This document shows positions 3,083-32,509 of a stretch of 64,000 nucleotides of DNA, one piece after another. A program made the translations under genes and the position numbers. The stretch is from Pseudomonas sp. FP198 (GTDB lineage: Bacteria; Pseudomonadota; Gammaproteobacteria; Pseudomonadales; Pseudomonadaceae): the NCBI RefSeq assembly GCF_030687895.1, contig NZ_CP117452.1, positions 4,208,501 to 4,272,500 on the forward strand. The letters run 5' to 3'. The first letter of the stretch is position 1. Every line of letters starts with the position of its first letter. The notes beneath the pieces are model-generated. The model was not told the origin of the DNA. It did not search any database and saw only the letters and a list, made by a program, of their open reading frames with translations.

Positions 3083-3982
3083 ATGCCCAATACCCACTGC
3101 CCCGACTGGGCCACCGCCCTGCTCAACGGCTTCAGCCAGATCTTCCTCCAGCGCCATCCCCTGTGCGGCCTGTTCTGCCTCTTGGCGATTCTGCTCACCG
3201 CGCCAGCCTTGTTCGGCGGCGCGTTGCTGGGCGGCGTGGCCGGATTGCTGACGGCCCAACGGCGTGGTTATGCCGAGGAGGATCGGCAGGCCGGGCTGTT
3301 CAGCTATAACGCAATCCTGCTGGGTTTGCTGCTGAGCCTGGTATTGCCTTGGTCAGCCCTGTTGCCTCCGTTGATCATCGCCGCTGGCGGCCTCAGCGCA
3401 ATGCTGACCCAACAGTGGCTCAAGCGCACCCGAGGCCCACGCTGCCTGCCCGCCTACACCGCGCCTTTCGTCGGGCTCGGCTGGTTGCTGCTGGGTCTCG
3501 CCCCGCCTGTGCCCTCGCCCGTTGCACTGGAGCAGACACTCCCCAACCTGTTGCTTGCCCCACTGAACGGCCTGGGCCAGGTCATGTTTCTCGACCAGCC
3601 CCTGGCTGGTGTGCTGATCACCATCGGCCTGCTGATCGCCAACCGGCGCGCCGCTGGCTGGGCGCTGTTCGGTTCCGTCGCAGGCTTTGCCTTTGCCTGG
3701 CTGCACGACAGCCCGCACGCCTTGTCCGGCCTGGGCGGCTACAACCCGGCATTGGTGGCCGTGGCCCTCGGCCAACACGCGCGCAAGCCATGGCGGCCGC
3801 TGGCGGGCGTGCTGCTGGCGGTCCTTCTCGCACCGGGTTTCGCGGCGCTGGGCGTGGCGCCGCTGACGGCGCCTTTCATTATCGCGTGCTGGCTGGTGCA
3901 TGCCACCGCGCGGCTGTGGCACCCAGCCTGTCGCGACATCGCGCCTTGCGCTCTGCGGGGCAATCACCCTAGGCTGCGCTGA
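3083..3982 (+). CDS. Urea transporter (UT family)
   Basis: A 299-residue, very hydrophobic protein with about ten membrane segments. The order of segments and the repeated pattern (NGFSQIFLQ..., FSYNAILLGLL near residue 72, then a second half with NGLGQVMFLDQPLAG near 170 and the GYNPALVAVALG strand) are those of the urea transporter family with its two internally related halves; the YNAILLGLL and YNPALVAVALG segments mirror each other. It would let urea cross the inner membrane. No clear ribosome site precedes the ATG at 3083. Its place after the glyoxylate operon fits urea as the co-product of allantoin breakdown. Confidence 0.85.
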   Translation: MPNTHCPDWATALLNGFSQIFLQRHPLCGLFCLLAILLTAPALFGGALLGGVAGLLTAQRRGYAEEDRQAGLFSYNAILLGLLLSLVLPWSALLPPLIIAAGGLSAMLTQQWLKRTRGPRCLPAYTAPFVGLGWLLLGLAPPVPSPVALEQTLPNLLLAPLNGLGQVMFLDQPLAGVLITIGLLIANRRAAGWALFGSVAGFAFAWLHDSPHALSGLGGYNPALVAVALGQHARKPWRPLAGVLLAVLLAPGFAALGVAPLTAPFIIACWLVHATARLWHPACRDIAPCALRGNHPRLR

Positions 3983-21729: not shown

Positions 21730-21824
21730 CTTCGCGAGCAGGCTCGCTCCCACAGGAGGCCGGTGTTGATTACAAGTTTGCAATCACCCAGAGATCCATG
21801 TGGGAGCGAGCCTGCTCGCGAAGA
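21730..21824. repeat. REP-type inverted repeat pair, family A
   Basis: Two facing GTGGGAGCGAGC units (C variant) about 45 bp apart, starting 26 bp after the glutaredoxin stop and ending 24 bp before the aminotransferase stop. The two genes converge here. Confidence 0.9.
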
Positions 21825-23550: not shown

Positions 23551-23647
23551 CTATCGCGAGCAAGCTCGCTCCCACAGGGTTCATCGGTGAACACAATCTT
23601 TCATTCACCACTGCACCATTGTGGGAGCGAGCTTGCTCGCGATAGCG
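23551..23647. repeat. REP-type inverted repeat pair, family A
   Basis: Two facing units of the T variant, 18 bp after the marR stop, separated by about 45 bp. The following 60 bp up to the permease promoter is AT-rich. Confidence 0.9.
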
Positions 23648-23707
23648 TCCTAAAGACCGATATAGCCCGACCGTCATAATTTTCGTCAACAAAACAGAAA
23701 ACATTAT

Positions 23708-23735
23708 TTGCTTTATTTGTATACAAAAGCATAAT
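23708..23735 (+). promoter_or_regulatory. Permease promoter with embedded palindromic operator
   Basis: A -35-like TTGCTT (23708-23713) and -10-like CATAAT (23730-23735) are 16 bp apart. The perfect palindrome TTTGTATACAAA (23716-23727) fills the spacer. A protein bound here would block polymerase. The same core, TTGTATACAA, occurs before puuE. Bases 23736-23863 form a leader in which I see no known riboswitch. Confidence 0.55.
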
Positions 23736-23863
23736 TCGCTTCGTGCGAGTTCCTGACCAAAAGGTCAACTACTTCGCCAGCCTTACCGCCTCAATGCCTC
23801 GCAGCCCTCCTCAGGGAGCACGCGGTGCTGAAATAACAATAAGACTCTTGAGGAGTACTCGCT

Positions 23864-25213
23864 GTGGAAAGCCGCAAACCCGAAGCCCAGACCCTGGACC
23901 TTTCGCCGCCACTACGCAGTGGCTGGCTGGAGCGAATCTTCAAACTCAGCTTGCATGGCACCACGGTGAAGACCGAGCTGATCGCCGGCCTGACGACCTT
24001 CATCACCATGGCCTACATCATCTTCGTCAACCCCAACATCATGGCCGACGCGGGCATTGATCACGGCGCCGCGTTCGTCGCCACATGCATTGCCGCCGCC
24101 CTGGGTTGCCTGTTGATGGGCCTGTATGCCAATTGGCCGGTAGGCCTGGCGCCGGGCATGGGCCTGAACGCTTTTTTTACCTACACGGTCGTCGGGACCA
24201 TGGGCTACAACTGGGAAACCGCGCTGGGCGCGGTGTTCGTTTCCGGGGTGTTGTTCATGTTCCTGACCCTGTCGCGGGTGCGTGAGTGGTTGCTCAACAG
24301 CATTCCGGTGAGCCTGCGCTACGCCATGGGCGCGGGGGTCGGATTGTTCCTCGGGCTGATCGGCCTGAAGACCGCCGGTATCATCGTCGACAGCCCGGCG
24401 ACGCTGATCAAGCTGGGTTCCTTGCATGAGCCAGGACCGCTGCTGGCCGCCGTGTGTTTCCTGATGATCGCTGTGCTGAGCTACCACCGTGTGTTCGGCG
24501 CGATCCTGATCAGCATCATTGCCGTGACCCTGGCCGGTTGGGGCCTCGGACTGGTGCAATACAACGGCGTGATGTCGACGCCGCCGAGCCTGGCTCCGAC
24601 CTGGATGGCGATGGACGTCGCCGGCGTGTTCAACGTCAGCATGATCAGTGTGGTGCTGGCCTTCCTGTTCGTGCATATGTTCGACACCGCCGGCACCTTG
24701 ATGGGCGTCGCCCAGCGCGCCGGCCTGGTAAAGCCCGACGGCAAGATCGAAAACCTCTCCAAGGCCCTCAAGGCCGACAGCGCCTCCAGCGTATTCGGCG
24801 CGATGGTCGGTGTTCCGCCGGTGACCAGCTACGTGGAAAGCGCAGCCGGCGTCGCCGCCGGCGGCCGCACGGGGCTTACGGCGGTGACGGTCGGTGTGCT
24901 ATTTATTGCCGCCATGTTCTTTGCCCCGCTGGCCGGGATGATTCCTGCCTACGCCACGGCCGGCGCCTTGATTTATGTGGCCATGCTGATGATGGGCGGC
25001 ATGGCCCACATCGAGTGGGACGAAGCGACCGACAGCATCCCGGCCATCGTTACCGCCATCATGATGCCGCTGACCTTCTCGGTCGCCGATGGCATCGCGC
25101 TGGGTTTCATCACCTACGTGGTACTCAAGGCCGGCACCGGTAAACACAAGGAAATATCCGTCAGCCTGTGGGTGCTCTGCGCGATCTTTATCGCCAAGTT
25201 CATCTTCTTGTAA
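23864..25213 (+). CDS. NCS2-family purine permease (AzgA/GhxP type)
   Basis: A 449-residue inner membrane transporter of the AzgA-like branch of NCS2 carriers. It shows EIAGLTTFITMAYIIFVNP-like sequence near residue 40 (here ELIAGLTTFITMAYIIFVNP), LAPGMGLNAFFTYTVV near 91 and SYVESAAGVAAGGRTGLTAV near 321, the conserved substrate-site region. This group imports adenine, guanine or hypoxanthine by proton symport. The start is GTG at 23864 with GAGGAG upstream. The promoter contains the palindrome shared with the hiuH/puuE region, so it is probably regulated together with urate breakdown. A terminator follows at 25232. Confidence 0.92.
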   Translation: MESRKPEAQTLDLSPPLRSGWLERIFKLSLHGTTVKTELIAGLTTFITMAYIIFVNPNIMADAGIDHGAAFVATCIAAALGCLLMGLYANWPVGLAPGMGLNAFFTYTVVGTMGYNWETALGAVFVSGVLFMFLTLSRVREWLLNSIPVSLRYAMGAGVGLFLGLIGLKTAGIIVDSPATLIKLGSLHEPGPLLAAVCFLMIAVLSYHRVFGAILISIIAVTLAGWGLGLVQYNGVMSTPPSLAPTWMAMDVAGVFNVSMISVVLAFLFVHMFDTAGTLMGVAQRAGLVKPDGKIENLSKALKADSASSVFGAMVGVPPVTSYVESAAGVAAGGRTGLTAVTVGVLFIAAMFFAPLAGMIPAYATAGALIYVAMLMMGGMAHIEWDEATDSIPAIVTAIMMPLTFSVADGIALGFITYVVLKAGTGKHKEISVSLWVLCAIFIAKFIFL

Positions 25214-25231
25214 GCGGGCCCGTCTGTATCC

Positions 25232-25256
25232 GCCTCACCCCGTCGGGTGAGGCTTT
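25232..25256 (+). terminator. Intrinsic terminator after the purine permease
   Basis: GCCTCACCC and GGGTGAGGC form a 9-bp stem with a CGTC loop and a four-T tail, 18 bp after the permease stop and just before the ribosome site of the LysE-type gene. Confidence 0.8.
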
Positions 25257-25276
25257 TGTGCATCAGGAGCAAAGCA

Positions 25277-25903
25277 ATGAATCTGGAAACCTGGTTGTTG
25301 TTCAGTGGCGCCGCGTTGGTGGTGATCCTCATCCCCGGCCCGCTGTCGCTGCTGATGATCAGCAACAGCCTCAACTACGGTCTGCGTCGTTCTTATCCGG
25401 CGTTCCTCGGTGGAGTAATGGCCTCGATCTGCCTGTTGAGCGCCTCAGCGCTGGGGCTCGGGGCGCTGTTGCTGGCTTCGGAACAATTGTTCAGCGCCCT
25501 GAAAATCGTCGGTGCGCTGTACCTGTTCTACCTCGCCTGGCAGAGCTGGCAGCAATCGCGCCAGCCGTCCCAGGGCGCCGAAGTACCCCAGGCTACCGCC
25601 ACTCCAAGGTTTCGCGCCCTGTTCGGCCGGGCATTCGTGCTGGGCGCGAGCAACCCGAAAGACATCCTCTTCTTCGCGGCATTCCTGCCGCAATTCCTGA
25701 GCGCCGAACAGCCATTCCTGCCGCAACTGCTGATCATGATCGCCACCTGGACCGTGCTCGACCTGCTGTGCAAGCTGGCCTATGGCCTGGGTGCCCACGG
25801 CGCTGCCCGGTATCTGCGTACCGGCAAGGGTCAGAGCTGGTTCAACCGGGTCAGTGCGGGGTTGTTCAGTGGGGCGGGGGCGGCTTCTTTGTTGAGCCGC
25901 TGA
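25277..25903 (+). CDS. LysE/RhtB-family amino acid exporter
   Basis: A 208-residue protein with about six membrane segments. The N-terminal pattern NLETWLLFSGAALVVILIPGPLSLLMISNSLNYG includes the conserved proline-glycine-P of LysE/RhtB exporters, and GRAFVLGASNPKDILFFAAFLPQF near residue 120 is the family signature of segment 4. It exports an amino acid or similar metabolite; the substrate is unknown. ATG 25277 has CAGGAGC upstream. Separated from the permease by a terminator, so transcribed on its own or by read-through. Confidence 0.9.
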   Translation: MNLETWLLFSGAALVVILIPGPLSLLMISNSLNYGLRRSYPAFLGGVMASICLLSASALGLGALLLASEQLFSALKIVGALYLFYLAWQSWQQSRQPSQGAEVPQATATPRFRALFGRAFVLGASNPKDILFFAAFLPQFLSAEQPFLPQLLIMIATWTVLDLLCKLAYGLGAHGAARYLRTGKGQSWFNRVSAGLFSGAGAASLLSR

Positions 25904-25913
25904 AAAGCAAAAG

Positions 25914-25990
25914 CTTCGCGAGCAGGCTCGCTCCCACACTGGATTACTGGTGTTCACGAAACTTTGTGGGAGCGAGCCTGCTCGCGAAGG
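25914..25990. repeat. REP-type inverted repeat pair, family A
   Basis: Two facing units of the C variant, starting 11 bp after the LysE-type stop. Confidence 0.9.
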
Positions 25991-26021
25991 CAGCCTCGAA
26001 GACAACCTCTTTTTCAAGGCC

Positions 26022-26048
26022 AAAAAAAGCCCGCAGTGTGAGCGGGCT
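26022..26048 (-). terminator. Intrinsic terminator of hiuH
   Basis: Read on the minus strand, AGCCCGC and GCGGGCT pair around a 7-nt loop and are followed by seven T (the A run at 26022-26028). It lies 60 bp beyond the hiuH stop. Confidence 0.88.
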
Positions 26049-26106
26049 AAAAACCAAAGAAGCTCTATGCGCAGTCGCTTCCAGGGCAAGGCAGCTGCTT
26101 GGGGGC

Positions 26107-26460
26107 TCAACTGCCTCGATAGGTTGAATAGGCGTAAGGCGAAATCAGCAGGGGTACATGGTAATGCTCCTGCTCCTGCGCAATACCGAAGCGCAGCACC
26201 ACCACATCGAGAAACGCCGGCTCGGCCAGTTGCACGCCACGGGCGCGGTAGTAGTCGCCGGCGTGGAATTGAATCTGGTAGACCCCGCTGCGGTAGTCAT
26301 CCCCTTGCAGAAGCGGTGCGTCGCAACGGCCATCGCTGTTGGTCAATGCACTGGCGACCAGCTGCAATTGCGAACCTTCGACGCGGTACAGCTCGATCCT
26401 GATCGAGCTGCCCGGACAACCGTGTGCAGCATCCAAAACGTGTGTAGTCAGACGTCCCAT
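26107..26460 (-). CDS. hiuH: 5-Hydroxyisourate hydrolase (transthyretin-like)
   Basis: A 117-residue transthyretin-like enzyme that hydrolyses 5-hydroxyisourate, the product of urate oxidation, to OHCU. The N-terminal [14 protein letters not shown] carries the catalytic histidine, and the C-terminal YRGS is the signature that separates the enzyme from true transthyretin. No periplasmic signal is present. It is transcribed away from puuE, with 411 bp between them that contains two TTGTNNACAA palindromes. Confidence 0.96.
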
Positions 26461-26586
26461 TGATTGTGCGTGCCTTGCCGCAAGGCGACCAGGCACGGCG
26501 CCTCCTGAGTCAGTTGAAAGACAGGCCGCACCATTTTGAAGCGTGAACGCTGCGGCAGTTCGCGAATTAAGACACTTTAAGTGTGA

Positions 26587-26598
26587 ATTGTACACAAT
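26587..26598. promoter_or_regulatory. TTGTNNACAA palindrome on the hiuH side
   Basis: ATTGTACACAAT is a 5-2-5 palindrome, 127 bp upstream of the hiuH start. On the minus strand it overlaps a TACAAT that could be a -10 box. It differs from the puuE and permease sites only in its two central bases. The AT-rich bases around it (26560-26630) look like promoter sequence. Confidence 0.5.
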
Positions 26599-26762
26599 AA
26601 AAAATGAATTTTTCTCGTGCACGCCGACTGACGATGGTTCCGCCCGACTCCCGATCCGCCCCTGCTGCGACAAAGGCTTGTGAAGGGTAAATTGACCAAG
26701 TGGGCAGATTTCTTGCAGTGTAGCCAAACCGACGGTCGCGGTGAAAAATGCAAAAAACAGGC

Positions 26763-26792
26763 TTACAAGTCGAATATAAAGTTGTATACAAT
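26763..26792 (+). promoter_or_regulatory. puuE promoter with TTGTATACAA operator
   Basis: A TTACAA (26763-26768) and TACAAT (26787-26792) lie 18 bp apart, about 80 bp before the puuE start. The perfect palindrome TTGTATACAA at 26782-26791 covers most of the -10 box. The same palindrome is in the spacer of the purine permease promoter. This arrangement indicates repression by one regulator. Confidence 0.55.
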
Positions 26793-26871
26793 CATCCCAT
26801 CGTCGTGACGCCAGCCTGTGATTCACCCCCAAGGCGCCACCTACCTGGTTCGAAGAAGAAGGAAGACTGCA

Positions 26872-27798
26872 GTGAGCGCTGACTACCCACGCGACCTGAT
26901 CGGTTACGGCAGTAACCCTCCCCACCCGCAATGGCCGGGCAATGCCCGCATCGCCCTGTCTTTCGTGCTCAACTATGAGGAAGGCGGCGAGCGCAACATC
27001 CTGCACGGCGATCGTGAGTCCGAAGCGTTCCTCTCGGAAATGGTTTCGGCGCAACCGCTGCTGGGCGAGCGCAACATGAGCATGGAGTCGCTGTACGAGT
27101 ATGGCAGCCGTGCCGGCGTCTGGCGGATCCTCAAGCTGTTCAAGCAATTCGATATCCCGCTGACCATCTTCGCCGTGGCCATGGCCGCCCAGCGCCATCC
27201 GGACGTGATCCGCGCCATGGTCGCCGCAGGTCACGAAATCTGCAGCCACGGCTATCGCTGGATCGACTACCAGTACATGGATGAAGCGCAGGAACGCGAG
27301 CACATGCTCGAAGCGATCCGCATCCTCACCGAAATCACCGGCGAGCGGCCGTTGGGCTGGTACACCGGCCGCACCGGCCCCAATACCCGGCGATTGGTGA
27401 TGGAAGAAGGCGGCTTTCTTTATGACAGCGACACCTATGACGACGACCTGCCGTATTGGGAGCCGAACAACCCCACCGGCAAGCCGCACCTGGTAATCCC
27501 TTACACCCTCGATACCAATGACATGCGCTTCACCCAGGTGCAGGGTTTCAACAAGGGCGACGACTTCTTCCAGTACCTCAAGGACGCCTTTGACGTGCTG
27601 TATGCCGAAGGCGCCGAAGCACCGAAGATGTTGTCCATCGGCCTGCATTGCCGCCTGATCGGCCGCCCTGCCCGCCTCGCCTCCCTCAAGCGTTTCCTGG
27701 AATACGTCAAGGGCCACGAACAGGTGTGGTTCAGCCGCCGCGTCGACATTGCGCGCCACTGGCAACAGACCCACCCGTATCCGGGAGCTTCGAAATGA
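26872..27798 (+). CDS. puuE: Allantoinase PuuE (polysaccharide deacetylase-like)
   Basis: A 308-residue protein of the NodB/polysaccharide deacetylase fold that in this context is the cofactor-independent allantoinase PuuE, opening allantoin to allantoate. Typical features: [20 protein letters not shown] at the N-terminus, [16 protein letters not shown] near residue 33, the [11 protein letters not shown] motif near 122 and [13 protein letters not shown] near 184. The GTG at 26872 follows GAAGGAAG. Its stop overlaps the uraD start (ATGA). It is the first gene of puuE-uraD-alc-allA-puuD. Confidence 0.95.
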
Positions 27799-28310
27799 CT
27801 GCCTTCCAGACCCTCAAGCCCTCCAGCCTGAGCCGCGAAGCGTTCGTCAAAGCCTTCGCCGACATCTACGAACATTCGCCCTGGGTTGCCGAAAAGGCCT
27901 TCGACCTGGGCCAGGATCCGTCGATCGACCAGATCGAAACCCTGCACCAGCGCATGAGCGACATCCTGTTGAGTGCCGACCACGCCAGCCAGCTGGCGCT
28001 GATCAACGCTCACCCGGACCTGGCCGGCAAAGCCGCCGTCCAGGGCCAACTGACCGAAGCCAGCACCCACGAACAGGCTGGCGCCGGTATTCACCAATGC
28101 ACGGACGAAGAGTTCCAGCGCTTCACCGAGCTGAACGAGGCCTACAAGGCCAAGTTCAAGTTTCCCTTCATCATGGCGGTAAAAGGCAGCAACCGGCACC
28201 AGATCCTTGCCGCGTTCGAAACGCGCATTCACCACTCGGCGGATGCCGAATTCAAATGCGCATTGGCAGAGATCAACAAGATCGCGTTGTTCCGATTACT
28301 GACCCTTTAG
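27795..28310 (+). CDS. uraD: 2-Oxo-4-hydroxy-4-carboxy-5-ureidoimidazoline decarboxylase
   Basis: A 171-residue OHCU decarboxylase giving S-allantoin, the step after HiuH. Signatures are [11 protein letters not shown] near residue 27, the catalytic [11 protein letters not shown] near 74 and [10 protein letters not shown] near 121. It is translationally coupled to puuE by a 4-bp overlap. The order of genes does not follow the order of reactions, but all steps are present. Confidence 0.97.
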
Positions 28311-28377: not shown

Positions 28378-29379
28378 ATGAAAGCTTACGCCGTACCGTT
28401 CGAAAAATTCGTCAACCTGGCCGACGCCCGCCTGGGCACCAGGATCATTTCGGTAACCGATGACTGGTTCGCCGATGCCAACCGCCTGTTCCAGCCGACC
28501 CCGGCTGTATGGAAGGAGGGCGTGTTCGACGATAACGGCAAATGGATGGACGGCTGGGAGTCGCGCCGCAAGCGCTTCGAAGGCTACGACAGCGCGGTGA
28601 TCCGCCTCGGCGTGCCGGGCTCGATCAAGGGCGTGGATATCGATACCTCATTCTTCACCGGCAATTACCCACCGTCGGCCTCCCTGGAAGCCTGTTTCCT
28701 GGCTGAAGGCGAGCCGGACGAAAACACCCAGTGGACCGAAGTGCTGTCGGCCGTCGAGCTGAAGGGCGACAGCCACCACTACCACGAAATCAGCAATGAC
28801 CAGGCGTTCAGCCATCTGCGCTTCAACATCTATCCGGACGGTGGCGTGGCCCGCCTGCGGGTCTACGGCATTCCGTACCGCGACTGGTCCGCCGTCGGCG
28901 ACAACGAACAGATCGACCTGGCTGCCGCCCTCAACGGTGGCCGTGCCTTGGCCTGCTCCGACGAACACTTCGGCCGCATGAGCAACATCCTCAACCCGGG
29001 TCGCGGCGTGAACATGGGCGACGGCTGGGAAACCGCCCGTCGGCGCACCCCCGGCAATGACTGGGTGATCGTCGCCCTGGGCCATGCCGGCATTGTTGAG
29101 AAAGTCGTCGTCGACACCCTGCACTTCAAGGGCAACTACCCGGACAGCTGCTCGATCCAGGGCGCGTTCGTCAAAGGCGGCACCGACAGCCAGATCGAAA
29201 CCCAGTCGCTGTTCTGGCGCGAACTGCTGCCGAGCCAGAAGCTGGAAATGCACGCCGAACACACCTTCGCCGAGCAGATCAAGGCGCTGGGGCCGATCAC
29301 CCACATCCGCCTGAACGTGTTCCCGGACGGTGGCGTGAGTCGCCTGCGGGTATTGGGCAAGGTGTCGAAACAAGGGTGA
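28378..29379 (+). CDS. alc: Allantoicase
   Basis: A 333-residue protein made of two related jelly-roll repeats, seen in the parallel pairs [15 protein letters not shown] and [14 protein letters not shown], and [16 protein letters not shown] near residue 156 and [16 protein letters not shown] near 316. It hydrolyses allantoate to ureidoglycolate and urea. The length is that of the family. The ATG at 28378 follows AAGAAGA. A repeat pair lies between it and allA. Confidence 0.97.
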
Positions 29380-29384
29380 ACCAA

Positions 29385-29452
29385 ATCGCGAGCAAGCTCG
29401 CTCCCACATTTGAAACGCATTCCCCTGTGGGAGCGAGCTTGCTCGCGATGGC
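29385..29452. repeat. REP-type inverted repeat pair inside the allantoin operon, family A
   Basis: Two facing T-variant units only about 22 bp apart, beginning 6 bp after the alc stop. It is the closest pair to a stop codon in the window. It could set the relative amount of alc and allA mRNA by protecting the upstream part. Confidence 0.9.
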
Positions 29453-29493: not shown

Positions 29494-29997
29494 ATGCGCA
29501 CACTCAAGATCGAGCCATTGACCAAAGAAGCCTTCGCCCCGTTCGGTGACGTGATCGAAACCGACGGCAGCGATCACTTCATGATCAACAACGGTTCGAC
29601 CATGCGCTTCCATCGCCTGGCGACGGTCGAGACCGCCACGCCGGACGACCAGGCGATCATCAGCATCTTCCGCGCCGACGCGCTGCAAATGCCATTGACC
29701 GTGCGCATGCTGGAGCGCCATCCGCTGGGCAGCCAGGCCTTCATTCCGCTGCTCGGCAACCCCTTTCTGATCGTGGTCGCGCCACTTGGCGATGCACCGG
29801 TATCAGGCTTGGTCCGCGCCTTCGTCACCAACGGCAGGCAGGGCATCAATTACCATCGCGGCGTCTGGCACCACCCGGTGCTGACGATCGAAAAGCGGGA
29901 TGACTTCCTGGTGGTTGATCGCAGTGGCACAGGCAACAACTGCGATGAGCATTTTTTCCAAGAGGATGAGCTGTTGGTCCTCGCCCCCCACCAATAA
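29494..29997 (+). CDS. allA: Ureidoglycolate lyase
   Basis: A 167-residue cupin-like enzyme that splits ureidoglycolate to glyoxylate and urea. The N-terminus LKIEPLTKEAFAPFGDVIE, the segment ERHPLGSQAFIPL near residue 72 and the conserved GINYHRGVWHHPVL near 112 define the family. Its glyoxylate product can enter the glxR-ttuD-pyk route at the left edge of the window. Confidence 0.96.
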   Translation: MRTLKIEPLTKEAFAPFGDVIETDGSDHFMINNGSTMRFHRLATVETATPDDQAIISIFRADALQMPLTVRMLERHPLGSQAFIPLLGNPFLIVVAPLGDAPVSGLVRAFVTNGRQGINYHRGVWHHPVLTIEKRDDFLVVDRSGTGNNCDEHFFQEDELLVLAPHQ

Positions 29998-30048: not shown

Positions 30049-31350
30049 GTGGAAGCACATATGCTGGAATGGCTGAACCTGAGCGTGCGCTGGGTTCACA
30101 TGATCACTGGCGTGGCCTGGATCGGCGCGTCGTTCTACTTCGTCTGGCTGGAAAACAACCTCAATCGCGTCAACCCCCGGAGCGGCCTGGCCGGTGATTT
30201 ATGGGCCATCCACGGTGGCGGCATCTACCATCTGGAAAAATACAAACTCGCGCCGCCGTCCATGCCGGACAACCTGCACTGGTTCAAATGGGAAGCCTAT
30301 TTCACCTGGATGTCGGGCATCGCCCTGCTGTGCCTGGTGTTCTATTGGAACCCGACCGTCTACCTGCTGGCTCCCGGCAGCAGCCTGAGCGGCGCCGAGG
30401 GTGTTGCCCTGGGCATCGGTTCATTGTTCGTTGGCTGGTTCGTCTATTCGGCACTCTGCGACTCGGCACTCGGCAAGCGCCCCGCCCTGCTCGGCCTGAT
30501 TCTGTTCGTGCTGTTGATCGCCGCGGCCTACGGCTTCAGCAAGGTGTTCAGCGGTCGCGGCGCCTACCTGCATGTCGGCGCCGTCATCGGTACGATCATG
30601 GTCGGCAACGTGTTCCGCATCATCATGCCGGCCCAGCGCGCCCTGGTGGCGGCCATCGCCGAGAACCGCACGCCTGACCCGGCATTGCCGGCCAAGGGCC
30701 TGCTGCGTTCGCGTCACAACAACTACTTCACCCTGCCGGTGCTGTTCATCATGATCAGCAACCACTTCCCGAGCACCTACGGCAGCCAATACAACTGGCT
30801 GATCCTGGCCGGAATCGCCGTGGCGGCGGTGTTGGTGCGTCACTACTTCAACACCCGCCATGACAGCAACCGGTTTGCCTGGACGCTGCCGGTCGGCGCC
30901 CTGGCGATGATCTGCCTGGCTTACGTCACCGGGCCCAAGCCAATGCCAACGGCACCGGAAGTCGCCAAGGCTCCCGGCGTGATCGAGTATCAACCGCTGC
31001 CGGAAACGGCGGTGGGCGGCGGGGCCAAACCGGCCACGGCGCCAGCCGCTCCGGCAACGGCGCCCGCCCAGGCGTCCAGTGCGCAGGGCCCGTCATTTGA
31101 AAAGGTCCACAGCGTGATCCAGGAGCGCTGCTCGGTCTGTCATTCGGCCAAGCCCACCAGTCCGCTGTTCAGCGCCGCGCCGGGAGGGGTGATCTTCGAT
31201 ACGCCGCAGCAGATCCAGCAACAGGCCGCACGCATCCAGGCCCAGGCCGTGACCACCCAGATCATGCCCTTGGGCAACATCACCCAGATGACCCAGCAGG
31301 AACGTGATCTGATCGGCGCCTGGATCACCCAGGGCGCGCGCACCAACTAG
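30049..31350 (+). CDS. puuD: Membrane urate oxidase PuuD with C-terminal cytochrome c domain
   Basis: A 433-residue inner membrane protein. Residues 1-305 contain about eight membrane helices (NLSVRWVHMITGVAWIGASFYF at the start), the urate hydroxylase domain. After an alanine/proline linker (330-345) comes a cytochrome c domain with the haem motif CSVCH at 361-365 and a distal methionine region (IMPLGN near 406). The family oxidises urate to 5-hydroxyisourate and passes electrons to the respiratory chain instead of making peroxide. The GTG at 30049 follows a GAGAGG; an ATG four codons later is an alternative. No soluble uricase is encoded nearby, so this is the urate-oxidising step. Confidence 0.94.
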   Translation: MEAHMLEWLNLSVRWVHMITGVAWIGASFYFVWLENNLNRVNPRSGLAGDLWAIHGGGIYHLEKYKLAPPSMPDNLHWFKWEAYFTWMSGIALLCLVFYWNPTVYLLAPGSSLSGAEGVALGIGSLFVGWFVYSALCDSALGKRPALLGLILFVLLIAAAYGFSKVFSGRGAYLHVGAVIGTIMVGNVFRIIMPAQRALVAAIAENRTPDPALPAKGLLRSRHNNYFTLPVLFIMISNHFPSTYGSQYNWLILAGIAVAAVLVRHYFNTRHDSNRFAWTLPVGALAMICLAYVTGPKPMPTAPEVAKAPGVIEYQPLPETAVGGGAKPATAPAAPATAPAQASSAQGPSFEKVHSVIQERCSVCHSAKPTSPLFSAAPGGVIFDTPQQIQQQAARIQAQAVTTQIMPLGNITQMTQQERDLIGAWITQGARTN

Positions 31351-31723: not shown

Positions 31724-32509
31724 ATGAAACGTACGTGCACCAGCCTGATACTCGCAGGATCGTTGCTCGCCGGCAGCCAGGCCATGGCCGGCGATCTGTT
31801 GCAGTGGCAGAACAACAGCCTGAGTTACCTCTACGGCAAGGATTTCCAGATCAATCCACGTATCCAGCAGACCGTGACGTTCGAACACGCCGATGCCTGG
31901 ACCTACGGCGACAACTTCTTCTTCCTCGACCGGATCTTCTACAACGGCGAGGACGACAGCAATTCCGGCCCGAACACCTACTACGGCGAGTTCAGTCCGC
32001 GCCTGTCGTTTGGCAAGATCCTTGATCAGAAGCTGGAACTGGGCCCGGTCAAGGACGTGCTGCTGGCCATGACCTATGAGTTTGGCGAAGGTGACAACGA
32101 GTCCTACCTGATCGGCCCGGGCTTTGACCTGGCGATTCCCGGCTTCGACTATTTCCAGTTGAATTTCTACAACCGCCAGACCGAAGGCTCGCGGGCGGGC
32201 GACAATGTCTGGCAGATCACCCCGGTCTGGGCCGTCACCGTCCCGGTGGGTTCATCCGACATCCTGTTCGACGGGTTCATCGACTGGGTCGTCGACAACG
32301 ACAGCAACGCCAAGGGCACGTACCACGCCAACCTGCATATCGTCCCGCAGATCAAATATGACCTGGGCAAGGCGTTGAAGCTCGGCGCCAAGCAGCTATA
32401 CGTGGGCGTGGAATACGACTACTGGAAGAACAAGTACGCCATCGAGGACAGCGAAAGCTTCAAGACCAACCAGAGCAATACCAGCCTGCTGGTCAAATAT
32501 CATTTCTGA
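31724..32509 (+). CDS. Tsx-like outer membrane channel protein
   Basis: A 261-residue outer membrane beta-barrel. A signal peptide (MKRTCTSLILAGSLLAGSQAMA) is cut near residue 22, alternating aromatic strands follow, and the chain ends in a barrel-type YHF-terminus (LLVKYHF). The sequence (WQNNSLSYLYGKDF near residue 29, YGEFSPRLSFGKI near 90) fits the nucleoside-specific channel-forming Tsx/OmpK family. Next to the urate genes it could admit nucleosides, purines or allantoin. ATG 31724 has GGGAG upstream. A terminator follows at 32524. Confidence 0.87.
   Translation: MKRTCTSLILAGSLLAGSQAMAGDLLQWQNNSLSYLYGKDFQINPRIQQTVTFEHADAWTYGDNFFFLDRIFYNGEDDSNSGPNTYYGEFSPRLSFGKILDQKLELGPVKDVLLAMTYEFGEGDNESYLIGPGFDLAIPGFDYFQLNFYNRQTEGSRAGDNVWQITPVWAVTVPVGSSDILFDGFIDWVVDNDSNAKGTYHANLHIVPQIKYDLGKALKLGAKQLYVGVEYDYWKNKYAIEDSESFKTNQSNTSLLVKYHF

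Follow-up and report, generated by a model that had tools for sequence, protein, structure and literature searches.

A conserved palindrome at purine and glyoxylate genes of Pseudomonas sp. FP198 as a probable operator of the UgmR/GclR repressor

Within a 64-kb stretch of the Pseudomonas sp. FP198 genome (contig NZ_CP117452.1, positions 4,208,501 to 4,272,500; hereafter the window), three near-identical palindromes are found in about 3 kb, at the genes for a purine permease, 5-hydroxyisourate hydrolase (hiuH) and allantoinase (puuE). An earlier note on this DNA had ascribed them to a single GntR repressor of the FadR group, a group marked by the FCD domain; judged by the conservation of the sites, their absence at paralogues and the site at a regulator gene, this is still the best reading. 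We conclude that the palindromes are very probably operators of UgmR/GclR, a GntR-FCD protein encoded beside guaD- and xdh-like genes. The evidence, all read from sequence, consists of the sites themselves, their conservation, the joint presence of sites and regulator gene across genomes, and a further site in front of that gene.

The three palindromes lie where the earlier description of the locus put them, at 23717, 26588 and 26782, and are the sole exact matches in the window to the degenerate class TTGTNNACAA. Shuffled versions of the window gave a mean of 0.40 such matches and reached three or more in 1 of 100 shuffles; with one mismatch allowed, 20 were found against 13.3 expected. Across the 5.86-Mb genome, TTGTNNACAA is not enriched (55 copies vs 69 for the reversed control), whereas TTGTATACAA occurs seven times against none for the control and about 1.05 expected from the base composition of the window. 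Thus, the pattern first proposed was too loose; we dropped TTGTNNACAA, many of whose matches are TTGTCGACAA, as the working motif, and used TTGTATACAA/TTGTGTACAA as the informative form of the operator, for which TTGTRYACAA is the better consensus. Six of the seven genomic TTGTATACAA copies are at purine-type or glyoxylate genes (Table 1). The TTGTGTACAA/TTGTACACAA form adds the sites at hiuH and at the regulator gene, plus two others, one at 2270103 (at the start of a GGDEF/EAL gene or before it) and one at 5455890 (within a long open reading frame), which, judged on this genome only, we took to be chance matches.

The regulator gene, ugmR, occupies positions 1963793-1964563 of the genome, about 2.3 Mb from the window; the allantoin cluster and the glyoxylate carboligase gene gcl are about 2.2-2.3 Mb distant. 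It encodes a 256-amino acid protein that matches PF00392 and PF07729 above the cut-offs; among solved structures, its nearest matches are further members of the GntR family, with low similarity (best E 1e-18). The genome has 20 FCD matches, none of them inside the window, in line with the earlier statement that no such regulator gene is present there (GntR genes without FCD were not searched for). A copy of TTGTGTACAA at 1963696 precedes ugmR and ends 88 bp before the gene start. Across this operator gap is a BenE-family permease gene, and on the other side guaD-, xdhC-, xdhB- and xdhA-like genes follow in that order (locus L051), xdhA being called by Pfam domains and the other three named from translations only. 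The P. aeruginosa ugmR gene, PA1520, presumably has the same xanthine/guanine gene neighbors. Among the 80 Pseudomonas contigs that best match the regulator (the best 80 of 541 relatives, 95-98% identity), TTGTGTACAA starts 88-113 bp 5' of ugmR in all 80; elsewhere in these loci (1.52 Mb), all 17 copies of TTGTNNACAA are TTGTCGACAA.

Conservation was assessed in a family sample of 39 genomes, 14 of which carry an ugmR orthologue (at least 69% identity) and 20 a puuE orthologue (at least 79%). In 13 of these 14 genomes, puuE has an exact TTGTNNACAA match upstream, and the fourteenth (G007) has a one-mismatch copy; the same is true upstream of ugmR itself (exact within 350 bp in 13/14, one mismatch in G007). 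The exact puuE site is also present in all three genomes of genus g6 (G005, G022 and G036), where the nearest GntR protein is 38-39% identical, and it is missing in the remaining three genomes with a puuE orthologue (G016, G017 and G033), where the best GntR protein is 29-31% identical; over the 14 ugmR and three g6 genomes, the puuE operator is therefore exact in 16 and has one mismatch in one. Conservation of the hiuH-side site was counted by position upstream of puuE, hiuH being identified in this genome only: of the 17 regions that have a site before puuE, nine have an exact hiuH-side copy, seven a copy with one mismatch and one (G007) none. Ten puuE-like loci below 79% identity were left out of the puuE count; one of them, the puuE copy of G035 (L157), has an exact site and lies ca. 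2.3 kb from a GntR gene that codes for a product 40% identical to UgmR and itself lacks a site within 350 bp.

TTGTRYACAA lies 117-163 bp upstream of 13/13 permease orthologues (77-100% identity) and before none of the 17 paralogues examined (54-58% identity; 19 listed), those of the same genomes included (Fisher p 8e-9, uncorrected for phylogeny). The site is likewise present at 9/9 gcl orthologues of at least 86% identity and at 5/5 orthologues of the NCS1 permease gene of at least 69%, and the reversed control has no occurrence in the upstream windows of puuE, ugmR, the permease, gcl, NCS1 or pbuX. Summed over whole genomes, TTGTATACAA occurs 68 times vs 2 for the control in the 14 ugmR genomes and 34 vs 24 in the other 25; when G005, G022, G035 and G036 are excluded from the latter, the sum is 25 vs 21. 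Both refuting conditions named in the earlier note thus came out in favor of its proposal: the sites are retained before orthologous genes across genera, and they are absent from the paralogous permease genes examined, with no occurrence of the reversed control in the upstream windows.

Within the sites, the arms of the permease palindrome are 100% kept vs 79% in the flanks, and over five gene sets the values are 95-100% for the arms and 49-79% for the flanks, in rows anchored on the best match, which somewhat favors the arms. We can scarcely credit that the three palindromes are chance matches, as the lack of genome-wide enrichment of the TTGTNNACAA class might suggest, given this difference between arms and flanks and the split between permease orthologues and paralogues.

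Another GntR-FCD protein of the genome could read the palindromes, or share them with UgmR, which we regard as quite improbable. The genome offers other FCD proteins to choose from, one of them with TTGTCGACAA at the start of its gene, published data from systematic evolution of ligands by exponential enrichment (SELEX) place a site of another GntR protein, PA0120, at P. aeruginosa gcl (PMC12694930), and in the three g6 genomes the GntR protein that accompanies the puuE site is encoded beside an NCS1 permease gene and has TTGTATACAA before its own gene. Against this, only one of the 11 TTGTRTACAA sites on either strand of the genome adjoins an FCD GntR gene, and that gene is the ugmR orthologue; the helix-turn-helix region of UgmR (residues 27-90) is 89-100% identical to the query in nine aligned orthologues; and TTGTNNACAA was absent from the 7.4-10 kb retrieved around each of seven further GntR relatives (36-43% identity) from other genomes. 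With an overall identity of 38% to UgmR, the g6 and G035 proteins retain the segment SRTxIRxxLxRL (FGVSRTIIRRALSRL vs FGISRTGIRKVLQRL) within the presumed recognition helix; other relatives differ there. Genes for GntR proteins 38-40% identical to UgmR were seen near an NCS1 permease gene (L255 4874-5662 and L256 5115-5903) or near puuE (L258 7704-8459), in genomes that lack an UgmR orthologue, yet have TTGTATACAA at puuE. A count of puuE sites in 17/17 genomes with an UgmR-like GntR protein vs 0/3 without (p 0.0009, likewise uncorrected for phylogeny) is not relied on, because the 38% cut was picked post hoc and other relatives of 36-43% identity lack sites.

Several observations weigh against UgmR/GclR as the protein that reads these sites. 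In G007, whose ugmR is 69% identical, there is no exact TTGTATACAA anywhere in the genome, the sites at puuE and ugmR each having one mismatch; the two gcl orthologues of 77% identity (G015 and G031) lack a site even though ugmR is present; the site at pbuX is exact in only four of eight orthologues, with one mismatch in the other four; and no site within one mismatch was found in the region upstream of xdhA. In addition, TTGTCGACAA occurs at the start of another FCD GntR gene, 4043205 (L048 3140-3961; site 3928-3937, G000:C1:4043927), so UgmR has no exclusive claim to the half-sites as such; this could be a sister operator that differs at its center. This gene adjoins genes resembling 2-methylcitrate genes (named from translation). 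From the literature, gcl of P. aeruginosa is induced by allantoin, a compound that does not relieve UgmR repression (PMC12694930), and therefore a further regulator probably acts in that species; in P. umsongensis GO16, deletion of a GclR-related GntR gene left growth with ethylene glycol, TA and glucose unchanged (PMC13357446). PA1504, a protein of the same type as a regulator near gcl in our genome, has been suggested as a further gcl regulator (PMC12694930). That regulator, a RutR-like protein with a TetR_C_3 domain, is encoded at L047 13736-14380, ca. 1.3 kb from the divergent promoter of gcl and the HbpS-like gene.

Both the binding of UgmR/GclR to precisely these palindromes in this species and the way in which the promoters would be blocked are inferred. 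A UgmR/GclR dimer would occupy TTGTATACAA, which lies within the spacer of the permease promoter and covers the likely puuE -10, and would take up corresponding positions before hiuH, gcl and ugmR, thereby excluding RNA polymerase. Xanthine dehydrogenase produces urate, and binding of urate to the FCD domain would free the promoters of the repressor, whereupon uptake, the breakdown of urate to glyoxylate and glyoxylate carboligase would be switched on together. The effector could instead be allantoin or glyoxylate, given that the regulon is centered on these steps and that gcl is allantoin-inducible in P. aeruginosa, but we consider this unlikely, as relief of UgmR is reported for uric acid and not for allantoin (PMC12694930).

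The promoter placement on which these steps draw, with the palindrome in the permease spacer and over the puuE -10, was proposed in the earlier note. A sigma-70 scan of both intergenic regions (permease; hiuH-puuE) returned no promoter at the scan threshold, whereas the placement fits two conserved blocks: CATAAT is kept in all 13 orthologous permease promoters, which supports a palindrome lying between -35 and -10, and 13/14 ugmR-bearing genomes retain a TACA(A/G) block located 18 bp 5' of the palindrome at puuE.

The seventh TTGTATACAA copy precedes the azurin gene. A genus sample of 59 genomes, 56 with azurin, was searched by examining the DNA upstream of all 58 azurin matches, in windows of 250 bp (30 matches) or stretches of 531-601 bp (28 matches). 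An exact TTGTATACAA precedes azurin in 38 of the 56 azurin-bearing genomes (26/30 plus 12/28) and a one-mismatch copy in four more (G045, G053, G074 and G058); none was found in 14 genomes of the genus or before two second azurin copies. Outside the genus, the site is present in 0/9 ugmR-bearing genomes with azurin. Three genomes only were tested for both ugmR and the azurin site: G000 and G030 have both, and G014 has neither. The flanks are of at least two types, one with the palindrome before a TTGATnnnnATCA-like box and one with it before CCATTGAACAAT, and the palindrome is exact in both; TTGTATACAA often stands just before the TTGATnnnnATCA-like, Anr-type sequence by eye, and at 4/28 loci by pattern. 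Published work describes an Anr-box at azu for most of the species that it covered (PMC6588701). Our genus sample resembles this known control in the Anr-like box beside the palindrome and differs from it in the palindrome itself, which the published passages do not mention next to the box (PMC6588701); nor did searches of the open literature (azurin with GntR or uric acid; purine/gcl motif) find a report of this palindrome at azurin. Tentatively, the urate repressor may have captured the azurin promoter in this genus, the TTGTATACAA copy beside the Anr box tying azurin, a blue copper electron carrier, to urate or another effector of the same repressor, although we lean slightly against this; the site could belong to another GntR protein. 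If true, the breakdown of purines would be linked to the flow of electrons in respiration or oxidative stress; if bound, the site would be an unexpected tie of purine catabolism to electron transfer.

Coordinates of the sites and of the genes around them are collected in Table 1; gene identities in the window come from NCBIfam and Pfam profile matches. No operator of the TTGTNNACAA type was found 5' of the Tsx-like gene in exact and one-mismatch scans of the window. A second small palindrome, ACACTTTAAGTGT, lies at 26572-26584, 3 bp from the hiuH-side site, and is kept in 0 of 15 other aligned rows. Paired inverted GCGAGC...GCTCCCACA copies, common in Pseudomonas and presumably REP-like, are found in intergenic DNA at 21733-21824, 23555-23650, 25917-25990 and 29388-29450, and occur within the puuE-to-urate-oxidase gene series too. 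Among additional TTGTATACAA copies inspected in G008, G011, G028 and G030 of the family sample, only one was identified, before an NCS2 permease gene of G008 (L341). In G011, G028 and G008, a copy lies next to a gene whose translation resembles TrmO (L342 3013, L343 3089 and L344 2712), where the match may be coding sequence.

Table 1. Candidate operators and neighboring genes in the window and elsewhere in the genome (positions are those of the window unless a genome or locus label is given).
Feature	Position	Strand	Remarks
Candidate permease operator, TTGTATACAA within TTTGTATACAAA	23717..23726	.	138 bp 5' of purine permease gene; motif scan
CATAAT, likely -10 of permease promoter	23730..23735	+	3 bp 3' of operator; 13/13 orthologues; missed by sigma-70 scan
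Purine permease	23864..25213	+	Pfam Xan_ur_permease; no NCBIfam match
hiuH, 5-hydroxyisourate hydrolase	26107..26460	-	TIGR02962 (scan of 26107-26463)
Candidate hiuH-side operator, TTGTACACAA	26588..26597	.	128 bp 5' of hiuH; motif scan and conservation
Candidate puuE operator, TTGTATACAA	26782..26791	.	81 bp 5' of puuE, over likely -10
puuE, allantoinase	26872..27798	+	TIGR03212
uraD, OHCU decarboxylase	27795..28310	+	profile match
alc, allantoicase	28378..29379	+	profile match
allA, ureidoglycolate lyase	29494..29997	+	profile match
puuD-type membrane urate oxidase	30049..31350	+	Urate_ox_N
Tsx-like outer membrane channel gene	31724-32509		downstream of urate oxidase gene; profile match
TTGTATACAA, two copies	3.7 kb outside window		between gcl and divergent HbpS-like gene; motif scan, profile matches
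TTGTATACAA			5' of NCS1 permease gene, racemase-like gene next; motif scan, profile matches
TTGTATACAA			5' of pbuX, PbuX-type xanthine permease; motif scan, profile matches
TTGTATACAA	G000:C1:5191025-5191034 (L052 5026-5035)		62 bp upstream of azurin (Pfam plastocyanin/azurin family)

The regulator and the logic of its regulon were already described. In P. aeruginosa, the GntR protein UgmR (PA1520) is reported to act as a repressor that binds 5' of both gcl and the allantoin cluster (PMC12694930, citing Xu 2022), and published SELEX data place a UgmR motif at gcl (PMC12694930); the motif has probably been described already as well. A 2026 study linked PA1520 with pathways of the stringent response and of persister cells (PMC13086498). 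In P. putida KT2440, GclR (PP_4283) is a GntR repressor of gcl tied to xanthine metabolism (PMC13357446, PMC9206389, PMC11166783), and a GntR protein of P. umsongensis GO16 that is 89% identical to PP_4283 is encoded near xanthine genes (PMC13357446). Between the regulator described here and its orthologue in P. umsongensis DSM 16611, identity is 96%; the link to PP_4283 is indirect and runs through this species.

In the open literature, the passages found hold no report of sites at the NCS1 permease, pbuX or azurin genes, and a search with the motif letters and GntR gave no match in open papers, the letters with Pseudomonas leading to a paper on surface sensing. Thus, the purine instances described here are new members of the known UgmR/GclR regulon, and the instances and extra targets are what is added. 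TTGTRYACAA would be a precise operator for the repressor by which the use of ethylene glycol is limited in P. putida, and the predicted reach of the regulon takes in the purine permease, the urate-to-glyoxylate enzymes, gcl, the NCS1 permease and the xanthine permease, with ugmR itself and perhaps azurin in addition. With GclR, the regulator shares the GntR family, a probable action at gcl and the xanthine link, and it is connected to GclR by way of P. umsongensis; GclR differs in having been described for ethylene glycol metabolism, in passages that give no operator sequence. With UgmR, it shares the GntR family, and the reported UgmR targets, the allantoin cluster and gcl, bear the palindrome here; it differs in being encoded about 2.2-2.3 Mb away from both and in the extra sites at the NCS1 permease, pbuX and azurin genes.

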